The notes below the pieces were generated by a model. It saw only the letters and a program-made list of their open reading frames with translations. It did no database searches and was not told the origin of the DNA. The position numbers and the translations under genes are program-made. This document shows, one piece after another, positions 5,919 to 12,513 of a stretch of 64,000 nt of DNA. Position 1 is the stretch's first letter. The number at the start of each line of letters is the position of its first letter. The DNA comes from Pseudarthrobacter sp. NS4 (GTDB taxonomy: Bacteria; Actinomycetota; Actinomycetes; Actinomycetales; Micrococcaceae), in contig NZ_CP103288.1 of NCBI RefSeq assembly GCF_024758005.1, positions 3,658,001 to 3,722,000 on the forward strand, given 5' to 3'.

Positions 5919-6011
5919 ACGATATCCCCGGGTGCCAGCGGGTGTCAATGACTTTTCCCCGCTCTTTATGGTTAGCGGATAAAAGCGGGGCGCGCCGCTA
6001 TCTTGAAGGCC

Positions 6012-6758
6012 ATGAGCATTTTCCTTGTTGGTGCCGGGCCGGACTATGTGGCTTTTCCTGAAGTCTTTGACCGCTTCGCGGAGGAGGTCTCCCGGCATGT
6101 GCGGCCGGAAGGGCCGGTCCGGGTGGCCGTGGTGGTCCACGACCGGGGCGGAAACCCGGCGGCCCGCCTGCCGGAGTATGCCGAACCCTTGAACGCGCGT
6201 AATTCCTGTGACGTAGTGCCGGTGCTGCTCGGCCGGGAAGAGGCGGTGAACCCTGCAGTCTTCGACGGCGTCGACGCGGTGGTTGTGGGCGGCGGACTGA
6301 CGCCTGCCTATTGGGAAGCCCTGAAGGGCGCAGCGGCCGCAATTCTCCGCCGGGTGGCGGACGGGGCTCCCTACCTGGGCTTTTCCGCCGGCGCAATGAT
6401 CACCCCGGAAAGCGCACTGATCGGCGGGTACCGGGTGGACGGGAGGGAAGTGTGCGGCGAGGAGTGCTCCGAGGGTTTGGACGACGTCGCGATCCGTGAC
6501 GGCCTGGGCCTGGCCCCGTTCGCGGTGGACGTCCATGCCGCGCAGACCGGGACACTGAGCCGGGCGGTAGGCGCTGTGGCGGCGGGACTGGCAGCGAGGG
6601 CAGTGGCCATTGACGAGAACACCGCCATCGTCCTGCCCGCAGCCGGCTCCGCAGACTTCCAGGTGATTGGAACAGGCAACTGCTGGGATATCCGCACACT
6701 GCCCGGCGGCCCGGAAGGCTCCTCCGCCGTCACCGTCACTGTCCTGGGTGCCACCTGA
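6012..6758 (+). CDS. Peptidase S51 (dipeptidase E / cyanophycinase-like) family protein
   Basis: 248 aa. The nucleophile elbow is visible as YLGFSAGAMI (about residues 121-130), preceded by VDAVVVGGGLTPAYWEAL, which resembles the GG[GN] loop of the family. S51 enzymes are glutamine-amidotransferase-fold serine peptidases that cleave Asp-Xaa dipeptides or beta-Asp-Arg dipeptides. The substrate is not deducible here. No signal peptide is seen, so a cytoplasmic enzyme is likely. The ATG at 6012 (MSIFLVGAGP) is preferred over 6003 because the beta-strand begins there. Confidence 0.75.
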   Translation: MSIFLVGAGPDYVAFPEVFDRFAEEVSRHVRPEGPVRVAVVVHDRGGNPAARLPEYAEPLNARNSCDVVPVLLGREEAVNPAVFDGVDAVVVGGGLTPAYWEALKGAAAAILRRVADGAPYLGFSAGAMITPESALIGGYRVDGREVCGEECSEGLDDVAIRDGLGLAPFAVDVHAAQTGTLSRAVGAVAAGLAARAVAIDENTAIVLPAAGSADFQVIGTGNCWDIRTLPGGPEGSSAVTVTVLGAT

Positions 6759-6816
6759 TTTCCGGCGCCAGGTGACTGCCCCAGCGAGCTGACTGCGGCG
6801 CCGGCCCTAAAGGCAG

Positions 6817-7551
6817 TTACGCGTCGAAGTGGGTCTGGATGCCGCTGCCGGTCAGCTGTTCGATCAGCTCCCGGGCAACATCGCGCAGCTTGCGGTTGCG
6901 GTTGCTGGACACCTTCGTGAGGATTTCCATCGCTTCCGCCTGCGAGCAACGGTTCTGCGCCATGATCACGCCGCAGGCCAAATTGATGGCGGTCCGGCTT
7001 TCGAGCGCTGCTTCCAGGTCTTCCGCCCGGTTTTCGGCCGTTTTGATCCGGACGGACAGGTGGAGCGTGCTGTGGGCGGCGGCGGCGAATCCAACGGCCT
7101 TCTCGTAGACATCAGCGGTAAAGACCCGGGGCTTGGTGGCGAAGAAGTTGAGTGCGGCGCTGGCGGCGCCGCTGATCTCGAGCGGCACGCCCAGGGTGCT
7201 GTGCACATTCCGCTCGGCGAGCGCCTGGTTATACGCAGGCCAGCGGGGATCGCTGGCGACGTCGTCAATCATCACTGCTGACATCTCACGCAATGCCTTG
7301 ACACAGGGCCCATCACCGATTGCCTGCTCCACGTGGTCAAGCTGCACCGCCCGTTCGCTGCTGCCGGCAGCGGTAGCGGGTCTGCGCCTCAGCTTCAGGG
7401 TGACTGCGCATTCGATCCGGTCGTTGGCGGCTTCGGAAACTGCCGCGGCAGCCAGGCCCGAGAGCCCGGAGAGGAATTCCACCACGTTCTCGGCGCCCAC
7501 CAGGATCTCCTGGAGCTGAAGTACCGACTCTTTATCCGCAGAACTCGACAT
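6817..7551 (-). CDS. GAF-ANTAR regulator 1
   Basis: 244 aa. A GAF sensor domain spans roughly residues 20-165 (IGDGPCVKALREMSAVMIDDVASDPRW, then LGVPLEISGAASAALNFF). An ANTAR domain spans about 180-235 (SRTAINLACGVIMAQNRCSQ, then ILTKVSSNRNRKLRDVARELIEQL). ANTAR proteins bind paired RNA hairpins and prevent transcription termination, and the GAF part supplies the signal input. It is divergent from a second GAF-ANTAR gene with 64 bp between starts and is one of four such genes in 3.8 kb. Ligand and RNA targets are unknown. Confidence 0.9.
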   Translation of the reverse strand: MSSSADKESVLQLQEILVGAENVVEFLSGLSGLAAAAVSEAANDRIECAVTLKLRRRPATAAGSSERAVQLDHVEQAIGDGPCVKALREMSAVMIDDVASDPRWPAYNQALAERNVHSTLGVPLEISGAASAALNFFATKPRVFTADVYEKAVGFAAAAHSTLHLSVRIKTAENRAEDLEAALESRTAINLACGVIMAQNRCSQAEAMEILTKVSSNRNRKLRDVARELIEQLTGSGIQTHFDA

Positions 7552-7600
7552 GGGCTCATCTTACTGTTGCTCCCGCAGCGGGGGCGGGGGAAGACGGTGG

Positions 7601-7618
7601 CATATGCTTGGGCATATG
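7601..7618. promoter_or_regulatory. Inverted repeat CATATGC-TTGG-GCATATG over a start codon
   Basis: A perfect 7+7 inverted repeat with a 4-nt spacer. Its last three bases are the ATG of the GAF-ANTAR gene at 7616, and it lies in the 64-bp gap between two divergent GAF-ANTAR genes. It could be a protein operator or an mRNA hairpin that hides the start codon. Confidence 0.5.
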
Positions 7619-8334
7619 TCGCAGCACCTTCCCCTTGACGAGCTGAGCACCGTTATTGCTCGAATCCAGGGGCTGCTGCTCACCGAGGAAAAAGTCACAA
7701 CGGCGGTGCGCCTCCTGGCCCAGGCTGCTAAGGAGTCGGTGCCCGGAACCATTGGAGCGGGCGTTTCCCTCCTGGACCCCCGCGGCCGCCGCACCAGCAG
7801 CGGCTACACGGACGGAATCGTGGAACAGGCCGACGCCGCCCAGTACGAACATGGCGAGGGCCCATGCCTCACGGCGTGGGCCGCGGAGAAGCCAGTCCTC
7901 ATCGACGACCTCCTGGTTGACGGGCGGTGGCCTGCGTGGCGGCATGCCGTAAGGCAGTTGCCCATCCGTTCAGTGGTCAGCGCTCCGCTGCTCGCCAGCA
8001 AGGAAGCCATCGGCGCCCTGAAACTTTATGCCGCCGCCCCCACTCCTACGACGCGTCCAGCATGAAGTTGCTCCAACTCTTCGCTGTGCCTGCCGCAACC
8101 CTGCTCGCGCATATCCAGGCCAGCGAGGCCCCACAGAAGATGACTGAAGGACTGCAGTCATCCCTGCACAGCAGGGACATCGTTAACCGCGCTTGCGGTG
8201 TCCTGATGGAACGCCTGCATGTCCCGCACGAGGACGCGCTTCAACAGCTGATGAAGCAGGCCAGGGACAACGGCACCACCCTGCAACACGTCAGCGAATC
8301 CGTCCTGGCCCGGACGCCGGCATCCGGGAACTAG
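7616..8334 (+). pseudogene. GAF-ANTAR regulator 2, frameshifted in a C run
   Basis: The first frame (7616-8065) encodes a GAF domain ending GALKLYAAAPTPTTRPA and then stops. The correct continuation, HSYDASSMKLLQLFAVPAAT leading into the ANTAR helices DIVNRACGVLMERLHVPHEDALQQLMKQA, is in another frame and runs to 8334. Adding one C to the CCCCC run at 8036-8040 restores a continuous protein of about 239 aa. Both halves are well conserved in pattern, so the lesion is recent, a slippage-type variant, or an assembly error. If real, the product would be a GAF domain without its RNA-binding output. Confidence 0.8.
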
Positions 8335-8343
8335 GCGCTACCC

Positions 8344-8679
8344 ATGGGCTTCGATCCAAACGAACCGGAACAAAGGCGACGGCTCCGCGCCGCAATCAGG
8401 GCGGCCGACGTCCCAGTATCCGAGCTCTGGTTAAAGTACTTCAGCTTGTCGGGAGACGCCGGCGAGTACGAGGTGGAAGCTTACCTCCAGGGACTTCTCT
8501 CCTTGCCGCCGGTCCAGCGTGACTTGCTGGCTCTTGCGGCGAACGAACTGATCGATGGGCTCCCCCGGCCACGCGCCCCATACTCTGACGATTTTGGCTC
8601 CGGCCGCGTGGAATCCGAAAGCCGGGACGGCCACAGTGGCGGCAGCGCTGACGGGCGCAGCGCCGGGCGGGACGAATAG
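8344..8679 (+). CDS. Small GAF-ANTAR partner protein A, unknown function
   Basis: 111 aa and not recognised as a named family. The core, residues 27-75, reads ELWLKYFSLSGDAGEYEVEAYLQ and then LSLPPVQRDLLALAANEL; it is predicted helical. The C-terminal 30 residues are Gly/Ser/Asp-rich and probably disordered. The core is paralogous to the 83-aa protein at 9594 (shared LW..Y, GD..E, AYL, LP..Q, L). It begins 9 bp after the GAF-ANTAR 2 gene, and the paralogue has the same arrangement after GAF-ANTAR 3. This suggests a regulator-partner module, although no function can be read. Confidence 0.75.
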   Translation: MGFDPNEPEQRRRLRAAIRAADVPVSELWLKYFSLSGDAGEYEVEAYLQGLLSLPPVQRDLLALAANELIDGLPRPRAPYSDDFGSGRVESESRDGHSGGSADGRSAGRDE

Positions 8680-8719
8680 GACCTGCTTCCGGGCACAGCT
8701 CCTCCTGCTGTATCGGAAA

Positions 8720-8731
8720 CCCCTGCAGGGG
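8720..8731. promoter_or_regulatory. 12-bp palindrome upstream of GAF-ANTAR 3
   Basis: CCCCTGCAGGGG is a perfect palindrome in the 183-bp gap before the gene at 8863. It could be an operator or part of a terminator for the preceding pair. Nothing else in the gap is recognisable. Confidence 0.35.
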
Positions 8732-8862
8732 CGTAGTGTCGAAAGTAGGAGATTTCGGGATGACAACGGGATCCAGGGGTTGAATATACGGGCCATACTG
8801 CACCGAGAGCAGGGCCGAAAGCCAAAGGCCATAGCCTTGGCGCAATTTGGGATCGAGGCCTC

Positions 8863-9591
8863 ATGGCCGGGAACGATGCACTCACCACCTCCGATGGATA
8901 TCAGGACCTGCTGCTCGAAAGTGCCGGATTTGCTGACTTCCTCCTGGGCCTTGCCACCATTTCCGCATCGTTACTGAACGCCTGCACGGGTACCATGCTC
9001 TGCACCATCACCGTAGAGCGGGACGGTGCCCCGTCCACCGTTGCCAGCAGCAGTGAACGGGGCCGGCGGCTGGATGAAGCACAATATGCGGCCGGCGCCG
9101 GACCTTGCCTTACGGCAACCCGGCAGCAGAGGGCCGTGTTGGTTGAGGACATGGCCAATGACCAGCGGTGGGGCAAGTATCCGCAGGTCGCCCTTGATGC
9201 AGGCGTGAAATCAATGCTTGCTGTCCCCATTCCTGCCGGTTCCTCGTCCAAGGCAGCGTTGAACTGCTATGCGCAGGAGGCACACGCATTCGACCAAGAC
9301 TCCATGGGCATTATTGAAGAGCACGCGGCGTCCTTGTCCCGTATCCTCCGGCTGGCCCTTCGGGTGCACGCGCCGGGAGCCTATCCGGATCACCTGCGGG
9401 ATGCGTTGAAATCCCGTGCCGTGGTGGACGGGGCTGTCTCCCTCATCATGCTCCAGCACCGAGGGGGACGGGACGGTGCCCTGGAGCTGCTCCAACTGGC
9501 TGCCAAGTCCAGCAACCGCAGGATTCATGAAATAGCGAACGAAATTATGGACGGAGGCACCTTCTCCGCCGCCGGTTTGAATGGAGGGTAG
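8863..9591 (+). CDS. GAF-ANTAR regulator 3
   Basis: 242 aa. GAF domain about residues 20-165 (AGAGPCLTATRQQRAVLVEDMANDQRW, then MLAVPIPAGSSSKAALNCYA). The C-terminal ANTAR-like region is about 178-235 (LKSRAVVDGAVSLIMLQHRGG, then LLQLAAKSSNRRIHEIANEIM). The ANTAR segment is more divergent than in the neighbours: the usual A.G.IM turn reads AVSLIM. RNA binding may therefore be altered. It is followed two bases later by small partner protein B, so the genes are almost certainly cotranscribed. Confidence 0.85.
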   Translation: MAGNDALTTSDGYQDLLLESAGFADFLLGLATISASLLNACTGTMLCTITVERDGAPSTVASSSERGRRLDEAQYAAGAGPCLTATRQQRAVLVEDMANDQRWGKYPQVALDAGVKSMLAVPIPAGSSSKAALNCYAQEAHAFDQDSMGIIEEHAASLSRILRLALRVHAPGAYPDHLRDALKSRAVVDGAVSLIMLQHRGGRDGALELLQLAAKSSNRRIHEIANEIMDGGTFSAAGLNGG

Positions 9592-9593
9592 GC

Positions 9594-9845
9594 ATGAATT
9601 CGGATGGGACCGGGGGGCCGGAACAACTGGATGAGGCCGCCGAACAACGCCGGGGAGCAGCCCAACGATTCCGGGAGACTGAACTTCCGCTGGTCAAGCT
9701 GTGGACGTACTACTACGGGATCGGCGGGGACATCGACGAGGTATCCCTGGATGCATACCTCAACGAAGCCCTGGACCTGCCGGCCGCCCAGGTCGGACTC
9801 ATCACCACAGCGATGATGGAAATGACGGAAGGCGATACGCAATGA
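9594..9845 (+). CDS. Small GAF-ANTAR partner protein B, unknown function
   Basis: 83 aa. Residues 30-80 (LPLVKLWTYYYGIGGDIDEV, LDAYLNEALDLPAAQVGL) align with partner protein A at 8344, with about 14 identities over the 39 residues after the LW motif. It lies between GAF-ANTAR 3 (2-bp gap) and GAF-ANTAR 4 (ATGA overlap at 9842-9845), so translation is probably coupled. No metal-binding or catalytic residues are evident. A structural or regulatory partner of the GAF-ANTAR proteins is inferred from context only. Confidence 0.8.
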   Translation: MNSDGTGGPEQLDEAAEQRRGAAQRFRETELPLVKLWTYYYGIGGDIDEVSLDAYLNEALDLPAAQVGLITTAMMEMTEGDTQ

Positions 9846-10609
9846 AGGACCACGACAGATCTTCGGACCGGTCCCAAGCCACGGACCCCTTGGCCAACAG
9901 TGACCTGACGCTGCAGGAAATGGTCCTGCACAGCGGTGCGATAGGGGATTTCCTGGCCGAACTGGCGGTGCTGGCCGCAACCAGGATCTCCGTGCCGGGC
10001 AACGCCATCCACAGCGGCGTAACGGTCCTTCGCCGGAAGAGGCCGGAGGCGGTTGCCTCCAGTGATGAGACAGCCCACGCCCTGGACGAAATACAGAACG
10101 GGTTTGGTGATGGCCCCTGCCTCACCGCCCTGCGGAGCAAAACCACGGTGATGGTGCCCGATCTCGCCGAGGAACACCGATGGACACCATATGTCCGGGC
10201 AGCCGCGGAGAAGGGAGTTTCATCCATCCTTGCCGTTCCCCTGGATCTTGCGGGCGAGGCAGAAGCAGTCCTGAATCTCTACTCCGGGCACAGCAACGGA
10301 TTTTCCCCAGAGGACATTGCCATGGTGGAAGCCTTCACTGGCCAGGCGGCAAGCTCGCTGCGGCTGGTGCTGCGCATTGCCCAGCTCAGTGAGGCCAGGA
10401 ACGACTTGGCCACGGCAATGCAGTCCCGCACGGTGATTGACATGGCGGTGGGGGCCATCATGGCGGAGAACAGGTGCAACCGGGAAACCGCCTTCAAGAT
10501 CCTCACCAAGGCCTCCAGCACCCGAAACGTAAAACTGCGCGAGGTGGCAGCGGCGGTGATGGCCTCCATTTCCGGAGAAAAGCACATTACTGCCCATTTC
10601 GACGCCTGA
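9842..10609 (+). CDS. GAF-ANTAR regulator 4
   Basis: 255 aa. The start ATG at 9842 overlaps the stop of the preceding small gene (ATGA). The GAF domain is about residues 25-175 (FGDGPCLTALRSKTTVMVPD, then ILAVPLDLAGEAEAVLNLYS). The ANTAR domain is about 190-250 (SRTVIDMAVGAIMAENRCNR, then ILTKASSTRNVKLREVAAAVM). It resembles GAF-ANTAR 1 most closely, and both proteins end in the same HFDA residues. Antitermination through RNA hairpins is the family role; signal and targets are unknown. Confidence 0.9.
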   Translation: MKDHDRSSDRSQATDPLANSDLTLQEMVLHSGAIGDFLAELAVLAATRISVPGNAIHSGVTVLRRKRPEAVASSDETAHALDEIQNGFGDGPCLTALRSKTTVMVPDLAEEHRWTPYVRAAAEKGVSSILAVPLDLAGEAEAVLNLYSGHSNGFSPEDIAMVEAFTGQAASSLRLVLRIAQLSEARNDLATAMQSRTVIDMAVGAIMAENRCNRETAFKILTKASSTRNVKLREVAAAVMASISGEKHITAHFDA

Positions 10610-10898
10610 AGCCCACGCGCCCGCAAGGCCGGCTCCGGGCTTACCGGCACCCGGATTGTGAAACATGGGGTCCAGCTCACATGTGATGAGATTCACTCGC
10701 AACAATAGGCATTTTGGTTGAGGGCGCTCTTTCGGTTTGGGCACCATGGATGGATAGGGCAGGAGCACCTCCGGCCCCATCCATACCTGGTGACGCAATG
10801 AGGCCCACCGGTGTGCCCTCGGGCCGCCGACGCCGCAGTGCGCGAGCAGGCCGTTCCCCGGCTTCCACGGCCGGACCGAAACAAGGAAGCACTGAACA

Positions 10899-11081
10899 AT
10901 GACGTTTGAAACTGCCGACTCCGTGACGCTTAAGATCTGGGACCGCTCCACCGTGCACCACACACTGGACGCGATGGTTGAGGATCTTTGCACCCGCCAC
11001 AACACCACCAAGGGCAGCATCGCCGTGACCTGCAGCGGCCCGAACACCTTCACGCTCAGCCTCAACTCCGCCACTGCGTAG
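10899..11081 (+). CDS. Small protein, tandem copy 1, unknown function
   Basis: 60 aa, starting MTFETADSVTLKIWDRSTVHH and ending CSGPNTFTLSLNSATA. It is about 73% identical to the protein encoded at 11280 over 55 residues, and the two genes lie 200 bp apart on the same strand, so they are a tandem duplication. AAGGAAG upstream serves as ribosome-binding site. The alternating hydrophobic pattern suggests beta strands at both ends and a helix in the middle. No family name is recognised and no transmembrane or signal segment is seen. The 289-bp gap before it shows no gene. Confidence 0.75.
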   Translation: MTFETADSVTLKIWDRSTVHHTLDAMVEDLCTRHNTTKGSIAVTCSGPNTFTLSLNSATA

Positions 11082-11279
11082 CAGCCCTCCTTCAGCCAGG
11101 ACCGGGCAGGGCCATCACCGGTGTGCTTGGTCACATCGTCCGGGAACTGGTTGCCAACCACCCCAGCAGCATGCACCATTGAATTACGGGAATGCGCTTT
11201 CCCACTTTGCTTGTCCTCATCGACGAGGACACGGCCGGATATACCGGGCCGCTACGCCGCAAGAAATGGAAGTTGAATA

Positions 11280-11477
11280 ATGACGTTCGATGCCACTGAT
11301 TCCGTGACCCTGAAAATCTGGGACAAGGCCGCCCTGCACCACACGCTCGATTCCGCAGTCAGCGATCTCTCGGCCCGCCACAACACCACCACGTGCCGGA
11401 TTGCCGTCACCTGCAGCGGCCCCAACACGTTCACCCTCAGCCTGCGCGGCGAGGACCGGGTGCTGACCAACGCCTAG
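11280..11477 (+). CDS. Small protein, tandem copy 2, unknown function
   Basis: 65 aa, MTFDATDSVTLKIWDKAALHH through IAVTCSGPNTFTLSL with a short extra tail GEDRVLTNA. It is paralogous to the gene at 10899 and has an equivalent upstream context (GGAAG, then an AATAATG start). Conservation of both copies with mostly conservative changes argues that both are translated. A very strong hairpin follows the stop codon at 11491-11544. Confidence 0.75.
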   Translation: MTFDATDSVTLKIWDKAALHHTLDSAVSDLSARHNTTTCRIAVTCSGPNTFTLSLRGEDRVLTNA

Positions 11478-11490
11478 GCGGCAACCCCTT

Positions 11491-11544
11491 CTTAACGGAA
11501 GCGGACGACGGCGGAACATCCCGCCGTCGTCCGCTTCCGTTAAG
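11491..11544. terminator. Perfect 24-bp stem hairpin of the GACGACGGCGGG family
   Basis: A left arm beginning CTTAACGGAAGCGGACGACG pairs perfectly over 24 bp with the right arm ending CGTCCGCTTCCGTTAAG, with a 6-nt loop AACATC. It lies 14 bp after the tandem small-protein gene and ends 24 bp before the next start. A terminator is the simplest reading. Confidence 0.8.
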
Positions 11545-11568
11545 GCCGTCCACGCGCATACTTGACAC

Positions 11569-12513
11569 GTGACGGTAAGCAAGTGGCCGGGGTTCAAAAG
11601 GCAACGCGGACCCCGCGAGGTGTGGTCCGAGTGGACAGCCGCAGATGAGTCAGGAGAGGCGGAAAGGGCAGCGATCCTTGCCGCCGAGATGCTGCAGATG
11701 GCCCCGGGTTCCTTCGACGCCTGGTTCCATGCCGGACTCCTGTCAAAAGCACTGGGCGAGTGGGGCCAAAGCATGGAACGCAATGCGCGCGCACTCGAGC
11801 TCTTTACCCCCGAGGCCGCCGAAGAGTTCGACGGCGTCAATCCGGCCGCGTGGAACCTGGGAATTGCAGCAACAGCGCTGGGTGACTGGGCAACGGCCAG
11901 GAGGGCGTGGGAAGCCTACGGCGTCCAAGGCATCGGGGGTGGGTCCGGACCCATCGATTCCGATTTCGGCGTCGTGCCAATCCGGCTTAATCCGGACCAG
12001 CCTTCCCTTCCCCATCAGGTGCCTCCGTCAGCCGGGGCCACCGAGGTGGTCTGGTGCTGGCGAAGGAGTCCGGCCCATGCCGTCATAGCGAACGTTCCGC
12101 TCCCGGAATCCAGGCACAGGTTCAAGGACGTCGTCCTGCACGATGGCGAGCCGAAGGGGTTCCGCAGGCTCGGCGCACAAGCTGTTCCCGTATTCGACCA
12201 ACTCCAGCGCCTGGAGGATTCAGGCCTGCCCACGTGGGAGGCCCGGATCACGGGAGCCGCGCCGGACGACATACGGGAGCTGTCCAGCCACTTGGAACAG
12301 CGGGGACTGGGCCTGGACGACTGGTCCGGTATCCGGGTGATGTGCTCACAGTGCTCGCACGGCACTCCCGACCACGCCCACCATCACGAACCCGCACCGT
12401 CCGACGTGGCACGGCTTGGACTCGCCGGCCACGAAGGTGAGCTGAACCGGATATTGGAGGCCTGGATGGGCTCCAGGCCTGCGGTGGACCTGGATCTGAC
12501 ACTGCTCGGCTGA
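11569..12513 (+). CDS. Hypothetical protein with TPR-like N terminus
   Basis: 314 aa from a GTG start. Residues 30-115 form helix pairs typical of tetratricopeptide-like repeats (ERAAILAAEMLQMAPGSFDAWFHAGLLSKALGEW, then NPAAWNLGIAATALGDWATARRAW). The C-terminal part contains Cys/His clusters, CSQCSHGTPDHAHHHE, which might bind metal. The family is not recognised. CATACT ends 6 bp before the GTG, so a leaderless transcript with that -10 element is possible. It is separated from the upstream genes by a strong hairpin. Confidence 0.7.
   Translation: MTVSKWPGFKRQRGPREVWSEWTAADESGEAERAAILAAEMLQMAPGSFDAWFHAGLLSKALGEWGQSMERNARALELFTPEAAEEFDGVNPAAWNLGIAATALGDWATARRAWEAYGVQGIGGGSGPIDSDFGVVPIRLNPDQPSLPHQVPPSAGATEVVWCWRRSPAHAVIANVPLPESRHRFKDVVLHDGEPKGFRRLGAQAVPVFDQLQRLEDSGLPTWEARITGAAPDDIRELSSHLEQRGLGLDDWSGIRVMCSQCSHGTPDHAHHHEPAPSDVARLGLAGHEGELNRILEAWMGSRPAVDLDLTLLG

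Follow-up and report, generated by a model that had tools for sequence, protein, structure and literature searches.

We examined a window of 64,000 nucleotides, the whole stretch of DNA analyzed, from Pseudarthrobacter sp. NS4 (contig NZ_CP103288.1, positions 3,658,001 to 3,722,000), which carries two small genes, here termed A and B, interleaved with genes for GAF-ANTAR regulators. The cluster runs from GAF-ANTAR1, a divergent neighbor on the minus strand (6817..7551; Pfam GAF_2 1.2e-10, ANTAR 8.8e-18), through GAF-ANTAR2 (7550..8334; GAF_2 1.1e-10, ANTAR 9.1e-14), A (8344..8679; 111 residues), GAF-ANTAR3 (8863..9591; GAF_2 2.4e-12, ANTAR 4.8e-10) and B (9594..9845; 83 residues) to GAF-ANTAR4 (9842..10609; GAF_2 1.1e-14, ANTAR 6.5e-16), all but the first on the plus strand. 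In A, the core domain spans approximately residues 7-72, and the tail is of low confidence. A starts 9 bp behind GAF-ANTAR2 (8334 to 8344) and B 2 bp behind GAF-ANTAR3 (9591 to 9594); the ATG of GAF-ANTAR4, at 9842, falls within the stop region of B, an overlap of 4 bp. GAF-ANTAR2 occupies two frames in this assembly, with its GAF domain on an open reading frame (ORF) at 7550-8065 and its ANTAR domain on another at 7927-8334 according to Pfam, and comparison with a relative locus (L037) places the break near 8040, which is either an assembly error or a real lesion. A second ANTAR of this genome is also in two frames (L193, 1914283-1914443), near two short members of the A/B family. Rfam returned a single microRNA match over positions 6000-12000 of the window, far under its gathering score and discarded, and a promoter and terminator scan gave nothing exceeding chance.

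A and B are homologous, as judged from their sequences. The original prediction, made from the letters of the stretch, described motifs common to the two proteins and in register, and both ORFs are confirmed with these motifs: LWLKY, GDAGE, AYL and LPPVQRDL in A, and LWTYY, GDIDE, AYL and LPAAQVGL in B. Their local alignment scores 116, with 23 of 64 positions identical (~36%), against a mean of 26 and a maximum of 51 over 2000 shuffles. The prediction also had each small gene directly behind a GAF-ANTAR gene and outside any named family; the upstream genes at the 9-bp and 2-bp gaps are GAF-ANTAR by Pfam, and Pfam, NCBIfam and PHROGs returned no match for A or B above cut-off or of note. For seven paralogues in the same genome the sole library match was the GAF part of one, and 112 family members compared with Pfam gave a best E value of 0.011, with 21 families listed at E values up to 10 (the filters of HMMER remove the majority of matches with E higher than about 0.1), so that no known unrelated family in these libraries claims the paralogues or the 112 members. 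A likeness to 14-3-3 proteins, from a sequence search of solved structures with profile A5, was dismissed as noise (best E 0.42). No description of the family was found among titles and abstract openings of the open-access literature, nor in passages from PMC8164766, PMC7496416 and PMC8934654.

Family genes lie mainly beside ANTAR genes. Neither result that would have spoken against the original prediction, matches mostly away from ANTAR neighbors or membership in a known unrelated family, was obtained. We surveyed neighborhoods in 20 congeneric few-contig genomes (at least five of the weakest matches there being left out), in genome G031 and in the NS4 genome, together with eight further loci (G015, G017, G022, G039, G050, G057) and four from outside the Micrococcaceae. 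A profile search for recurrence of the pairing noticed in the window turned up 91 family ORFs, of which 66 have an ANTAR less than 1 kb away: 39/53 in the congeneric genomes, 9/16 in G031, 6/10 in NS4, 8/8 at the eight loci and 4/4 outside the family. Forty of the 91 follow an ANTAR in the same orientation, with no more than 70 nucleotides from domain to domain in 36 cases; the others within 1 kb are convergent (14), divergent (7) or upstream (5). The six found in NS4 compare with a mean of 0.09 and a maximum of 3 over 20000 random placements. Across 61 congeneric genomes the copy numbers of family and ANTAR genes rise together (Spearman rho 0.82), with a p value too small to be taken literally because the genomes are related, and in the family-level sample the A/B family is found in 0/44 genomes with three or fewer ANTARs versus 10/17 with four or more. 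Distances among regulators and among their partners correlate at 0.91 for six paralogous pairs of one genome (13/720 permutations) and at 0.88 for 13 pairs (0/20000). In a tree of 88 members, 24 have no ANTAR within 1 kb; ten of these cluster among the 14 members of a single short-form group, and the other 14 are spread over the tree. Separately, we note ten loci (L123, L126, L136, L140, L145, L149, L156, L163, L190, L196) at which a family gene and a GAF-ANTAR gene are convergent and share exactly 16 bp at their 3' ends.

The regulators themselves also group by pairing. In a midpoint-rooted tree of 169 GAF-ANTAR ORFs drawn from 193 domains (ORFs shorter than 200 or longer than 420 residues left out), 55 ORFs immediately precede a family gene, and 42 of these fall into one group of 44, with a support of 98 in the Shimodaira-Hasegawa-like approximate likelihood ratio test; this group includes L079 and L082, from two genomes of another bacterial family, f34. 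A second group, 11/14 of it paired, holds GAF-ANTAR3, and two paired ORFs stand alone. Several branches of this tree are long and its details are unsure.

For B, the pairing originally proposed needs amending. Its upstream neighbor at 2 bp is real, but the better conserved link is to the downstream gene with the 4-bp overlap. Among 21 B-type loci (12 from one search, eight fetched in addition and the one of the window), a GAF-ANTAR gene follows B in all 21, overlapping it by 4 bp in 19 (at L146 the called overlap is longer, and at L046 both lie in one ORF), whereas one stands directly upstream in 11 and is absent there in 10. The conserved partner of B is therefore probably the downstream GAF-ANTAR gene, not the upstream one. 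Twenty of the 21 also have a counterpart of GAF-ANTAR1, encoded on the opposite strand. The in-frame ORF of B and GAF-ANTAR4 at L046:3545-5014, from a Pseudarthrobacter oxydans record, was not counted as a fusion because a frame change inside B scrambles its helix 3. The A-type genes of the genus start 9 bp behind a GAF-ANTAR gene at nine loci and 7 to 13 bp behind one at five more; at the remaining loci the longest called ORFs overlap.

We identify fusions of the same domain to GAF, phosphatase and STAS domains. It stands N-terminal to GAF in NS4 (L007/L198), G031 and G057, and N-terminal to a SpoIIE-type PP2C phosphatase in L182, L183 and eight of nine database proteins with PF07228, Motilibacter and Lentzea atacamensis being among the sources. 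A scan of 52 loci with our own SpoIIE profile (44 from a search of bacterial family f47 and 8 from a class search of 394 genomes) found the SpoIIE fusion in 36, and Pfam confirmed SpoIIE in all five checked (L182, L183, L221, L222, L246). An ANTAR lies upstream on the same strand in 26 of the 36, within 80 nucleotides from domain to domain in 25 and at 1285 nucleotides in one; in the other 10 it is on the opposite strand, 849 to 1279 nucleotides away. The 16 loci lacking the SpoIIE fusion comprise six with no ANTAR, five behind one, three with one on the other strand, L229, where the domain is fused to STAS behind an ANTAR, and L282. At L220 the upstream gene encodes GAF-ANTAR-STAS, placing STAS on the ANTAR side. 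At L282, GAF, ANTAR and the A/B domain share a single ORF of 340 residues by Pfam, the C-terminal part of which is 51% identical to the free-standing protein of L225. A and B themselves have no SpoIIE domain. The pairing holds, but the picture of a free small partner has to be broadened: the domain also occurs fused to GAF, SpoIIE and STAS, and in about a quarter of cases is not near an ANTAR. The functional partnership itself appears better supported than before, by the co-occurrence, the old clade of paired GAF-ANTAR proteins and the one ORF joining GAF, ANTAR and the domain. A different arrangement was seen in genus g180 of f47 (L260, L261, L263-L265, L267, L270, L271), where the domain-SpoIIE gene is not behind the ANTAR but divergent from a 305-residue ANTAR ORF, about 1 kb away from domain to domain.

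The recurrent pairing and the fusions suggest a signaling adaptor not described before. Building on the observed homology, pairing, co-occurrence and fusions and on the fold model, we propose, with somewhat better than even confidence, that A and B are free acidic helical adaptor domains that dock on their cognate GAF-ANTAR proteins and either relay the signal to a protein output or gate the ANTAR. The docking site would probably be the coiled coil or the ANTAR part, and the docked domain would relay or gate a signal sensed by GAF. In other actinobacterial families the domain would carry the output itself, as the N-terminal part of a protein that continues into a PP2C/SpoIIE phosphatase or a STAS domain, and the GAF-ANTAR protein could thereby control partner switching. 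The SpoIIE and STAS fusions may represent the ancestral output, which Micrococcaceae would have shed, leaving a domain that acts in trans and is co-produced with its regulator by translational coupling. More speculatively, and with the balance tilting against it, actinobacterial ANTARs could be wired into partner switching by contact between proteins, either in place of RNA or in addition to it, through an acidic helix-turn-helix (HTH)-shaped adaptor with PP2C or STAS output; in Micrococcaceae the freed adaptor would have multiplied as cognate trans partners of derived ANTARs without canonical RNA binding. A domain paired with GAF-ANTAR proteins and fused to phosphatases and STAS would offer a concrete way, by means of proteins, to connect ANTAR regulators with partner switching of the stress type, and hundreds of 'hypothetical proteins' would gain a name-worthy domain.

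Several observations weigh against the adaptor proposal. In Micrococcaceae the analysis found no output for the free domain. Within the fetched loci, 20 of the 91 family ORFs lack an ANTAR altogether and five more have one only at 1 kb or beyond, and most ANTARs go without a family partner, given 682 ANTAR matches to 172 family matches in the 61 congeneric genomes. Many loci are orthologous, so the counts are not independent events, and co-inheritance or co-duplication alone could produce the same distance correlation without binding. The single ORF at L282 could have arisen through loss of a stop codon or be an artifact of assembly. An AlphaFold model of joined GAF-ANTAR2 and A, in which both parts fold, has a predicted template modeling score of 0.55 and carries no interface measure. 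The family is also patchy in its class, occurring in at least 11 of 394 genomes with profile A8 and at least 6 of 246 with profile A4; like the count for f47, where at least 38 of 249 genomes carry the domain, these are lower bounds, with 13, 19 and 21 first-look candidates scored per genome in the sets of 394, 246 and 249.

The known role of ANTAR proteins is that of antiterminators that bind RNA. An alternative reading is that A and B are anti-antiterminators, each sequestering its GAF-ANTAR protein and blocking RNA binding until GAF senses a signal, in the manner of NasS-NasT. The contact residues of EutV, taken from PMC8934654 and mapped by our own alignment, bear on this. At the position of the RNA-stacking Tyr164, where GAF-ANTAR3 has Leu, an aromatic residue is kept in 6/64 ANTARs directly upstream of family genes in Micrococcaceae-type loci, 21/25 downstream, 18/29 convergent or divergent and 24/75 others; as the last figure indicates, unpaired ANTARs have lost it too. 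In the alpha7-alpha8 loop, Asn at 175 occurs in 22/64 upstream ANTARs versus 111/129 in the other three classes, and Lys at 177 in 4/64 versus 107/129. In other families the aromatic residue is kept in 30/31 upstream or fused ANTARs, with N175 and K177 each in 9/31 of these versus 13/13 on the opposite strand. Taking the surveys of 64 and 31 ANTARs together, derived loops go with direct pairing, and loss of the stacking residue is a trait of Micrococcaceae-type loci. Work on NasR (PMC7496416) shows that a signaling domain can conceal the RNA-binding face of ANTAR.

The departing loop of the upstream ANTARs would suit an inhibitor, as would an acidic family (101 of 112 cores have an isoelectric point below 5) facing ANTAR domains that are mostly net positive in NS4 (13 of 17), and NasS-NasT provides a precedent. 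However, neither the ANTAR that goes with A nor the one that goes with the paralogue of A is basic, their net charges being -1 and 0, which also weakens the idea of the partner as an RNA mimic for a basic ANTAR; with the stacking residue kept in so few upstream ANTARs of Micrococcaceae-type loci there is perhaps no RNA binding to inhibit; and the SpoIIE and STAS fusions are left unexplained. We regard sequestration as rather unlikely. According to PMC8164766, some Arthrobacter have numerous ANTAR RNAs, and ANTAR is tied to several processes in them; neither "GAF" nor "hypothetical" appears in the main text of that paper.

The predicted structure of the partner core, about 65 residues in four helices, resembles XRE/POU HTH domains in helix order and shape. 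This raises the reading, in our estimate improbable, of A and B as HTH regulators that bind DNA and whose sole tie to the GAF-ANTAR genes is a shared operon. Foldseek of the predicted fold against the PDB gave a best E of 1.4, no HTH model is among the 21 Pfam families listed for the 112 members, and hhalign against a small profile of eight HTH_3 domains from NS4 returned 0.5% probability over 14 columns. Helix 3, the equivalent of the recognition helix, is acidic at positions 41, 43 and 45 in 71, 68 and 78% of members and basic in at most 10%, unlike the basic or polar recognition helix of XRE domains. Membership in XRE on the basis of sequence found no support and was rejected. A viral fold library gave a best E of 0.024, to an unnamed protein, and many XRE-like rows, from which no function was drawn.

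NS4 has 10 family-profile matches and 20 ANTAR matches, 19 over cut-off and two being halves of one split domain; the family is present in 48 of 61 congeneric genomes and in 10 of 61 genomes of the family-level sample, three of the 10 congeneric. One profile search yielded 438 matches from 8000 candidates scored. Seven plasmid records carry members, and both plasmids opened have a GAF-ANTAR gene directly upstream, in Kocuria rosea by annotation and in Arthrobacter sp. MN05-02 by Pfam. A neighborhood without function, in which the genes stay adjacent simply because whole clusters are copied and transferred as units, in part by plasmids, would fit the plasmid copies and the presence or absence of cluster parts between strains, but is very improbable given adjacency in five families beyond the Micrococcaceae (f12, f23, f34, f47, f48), four relative orientations and fusions to signaling domains.

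Two known arrangements resemble the adaptor as proposed. Like NasS-NasT, the pairs consist of an ANTAR protein and a dedicated partner encoded beside it, as the proximity survey above indicates, and AmiC-AmiR is a second case of an ANTAR regulator with a protein partner. NasS and AmiC are large binding-protein-like ligand sensors; the partner core here is small, four-helical and also found fused to a phosphatase, and the sensor is likely the GAF domain rather than the partner. RsbU_N (PF08673), too, is small and helical and precedes a SpoIIE/PP2C phosphatase in its protein. The N-terminal domain of RsbU is the docking site of its activator RsbT, whereas the neighbor of the A/B domain is a GAF-ANTAR protein. 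RsbU_N was rejected as the family itself, as it is not among the families matched by the 112 members and is absent from the 61 family-level genomes; the solved RsbU N-domain is not among the fold-comparison rows, which excludes nothing.

Downstream of the ANTAR cluster, the window also holds a tandem pair of small proteins with no Pfam match, of 60 and 65 residues (10899-11081 and 11280-11477), which are 73% identical over 55 residues.
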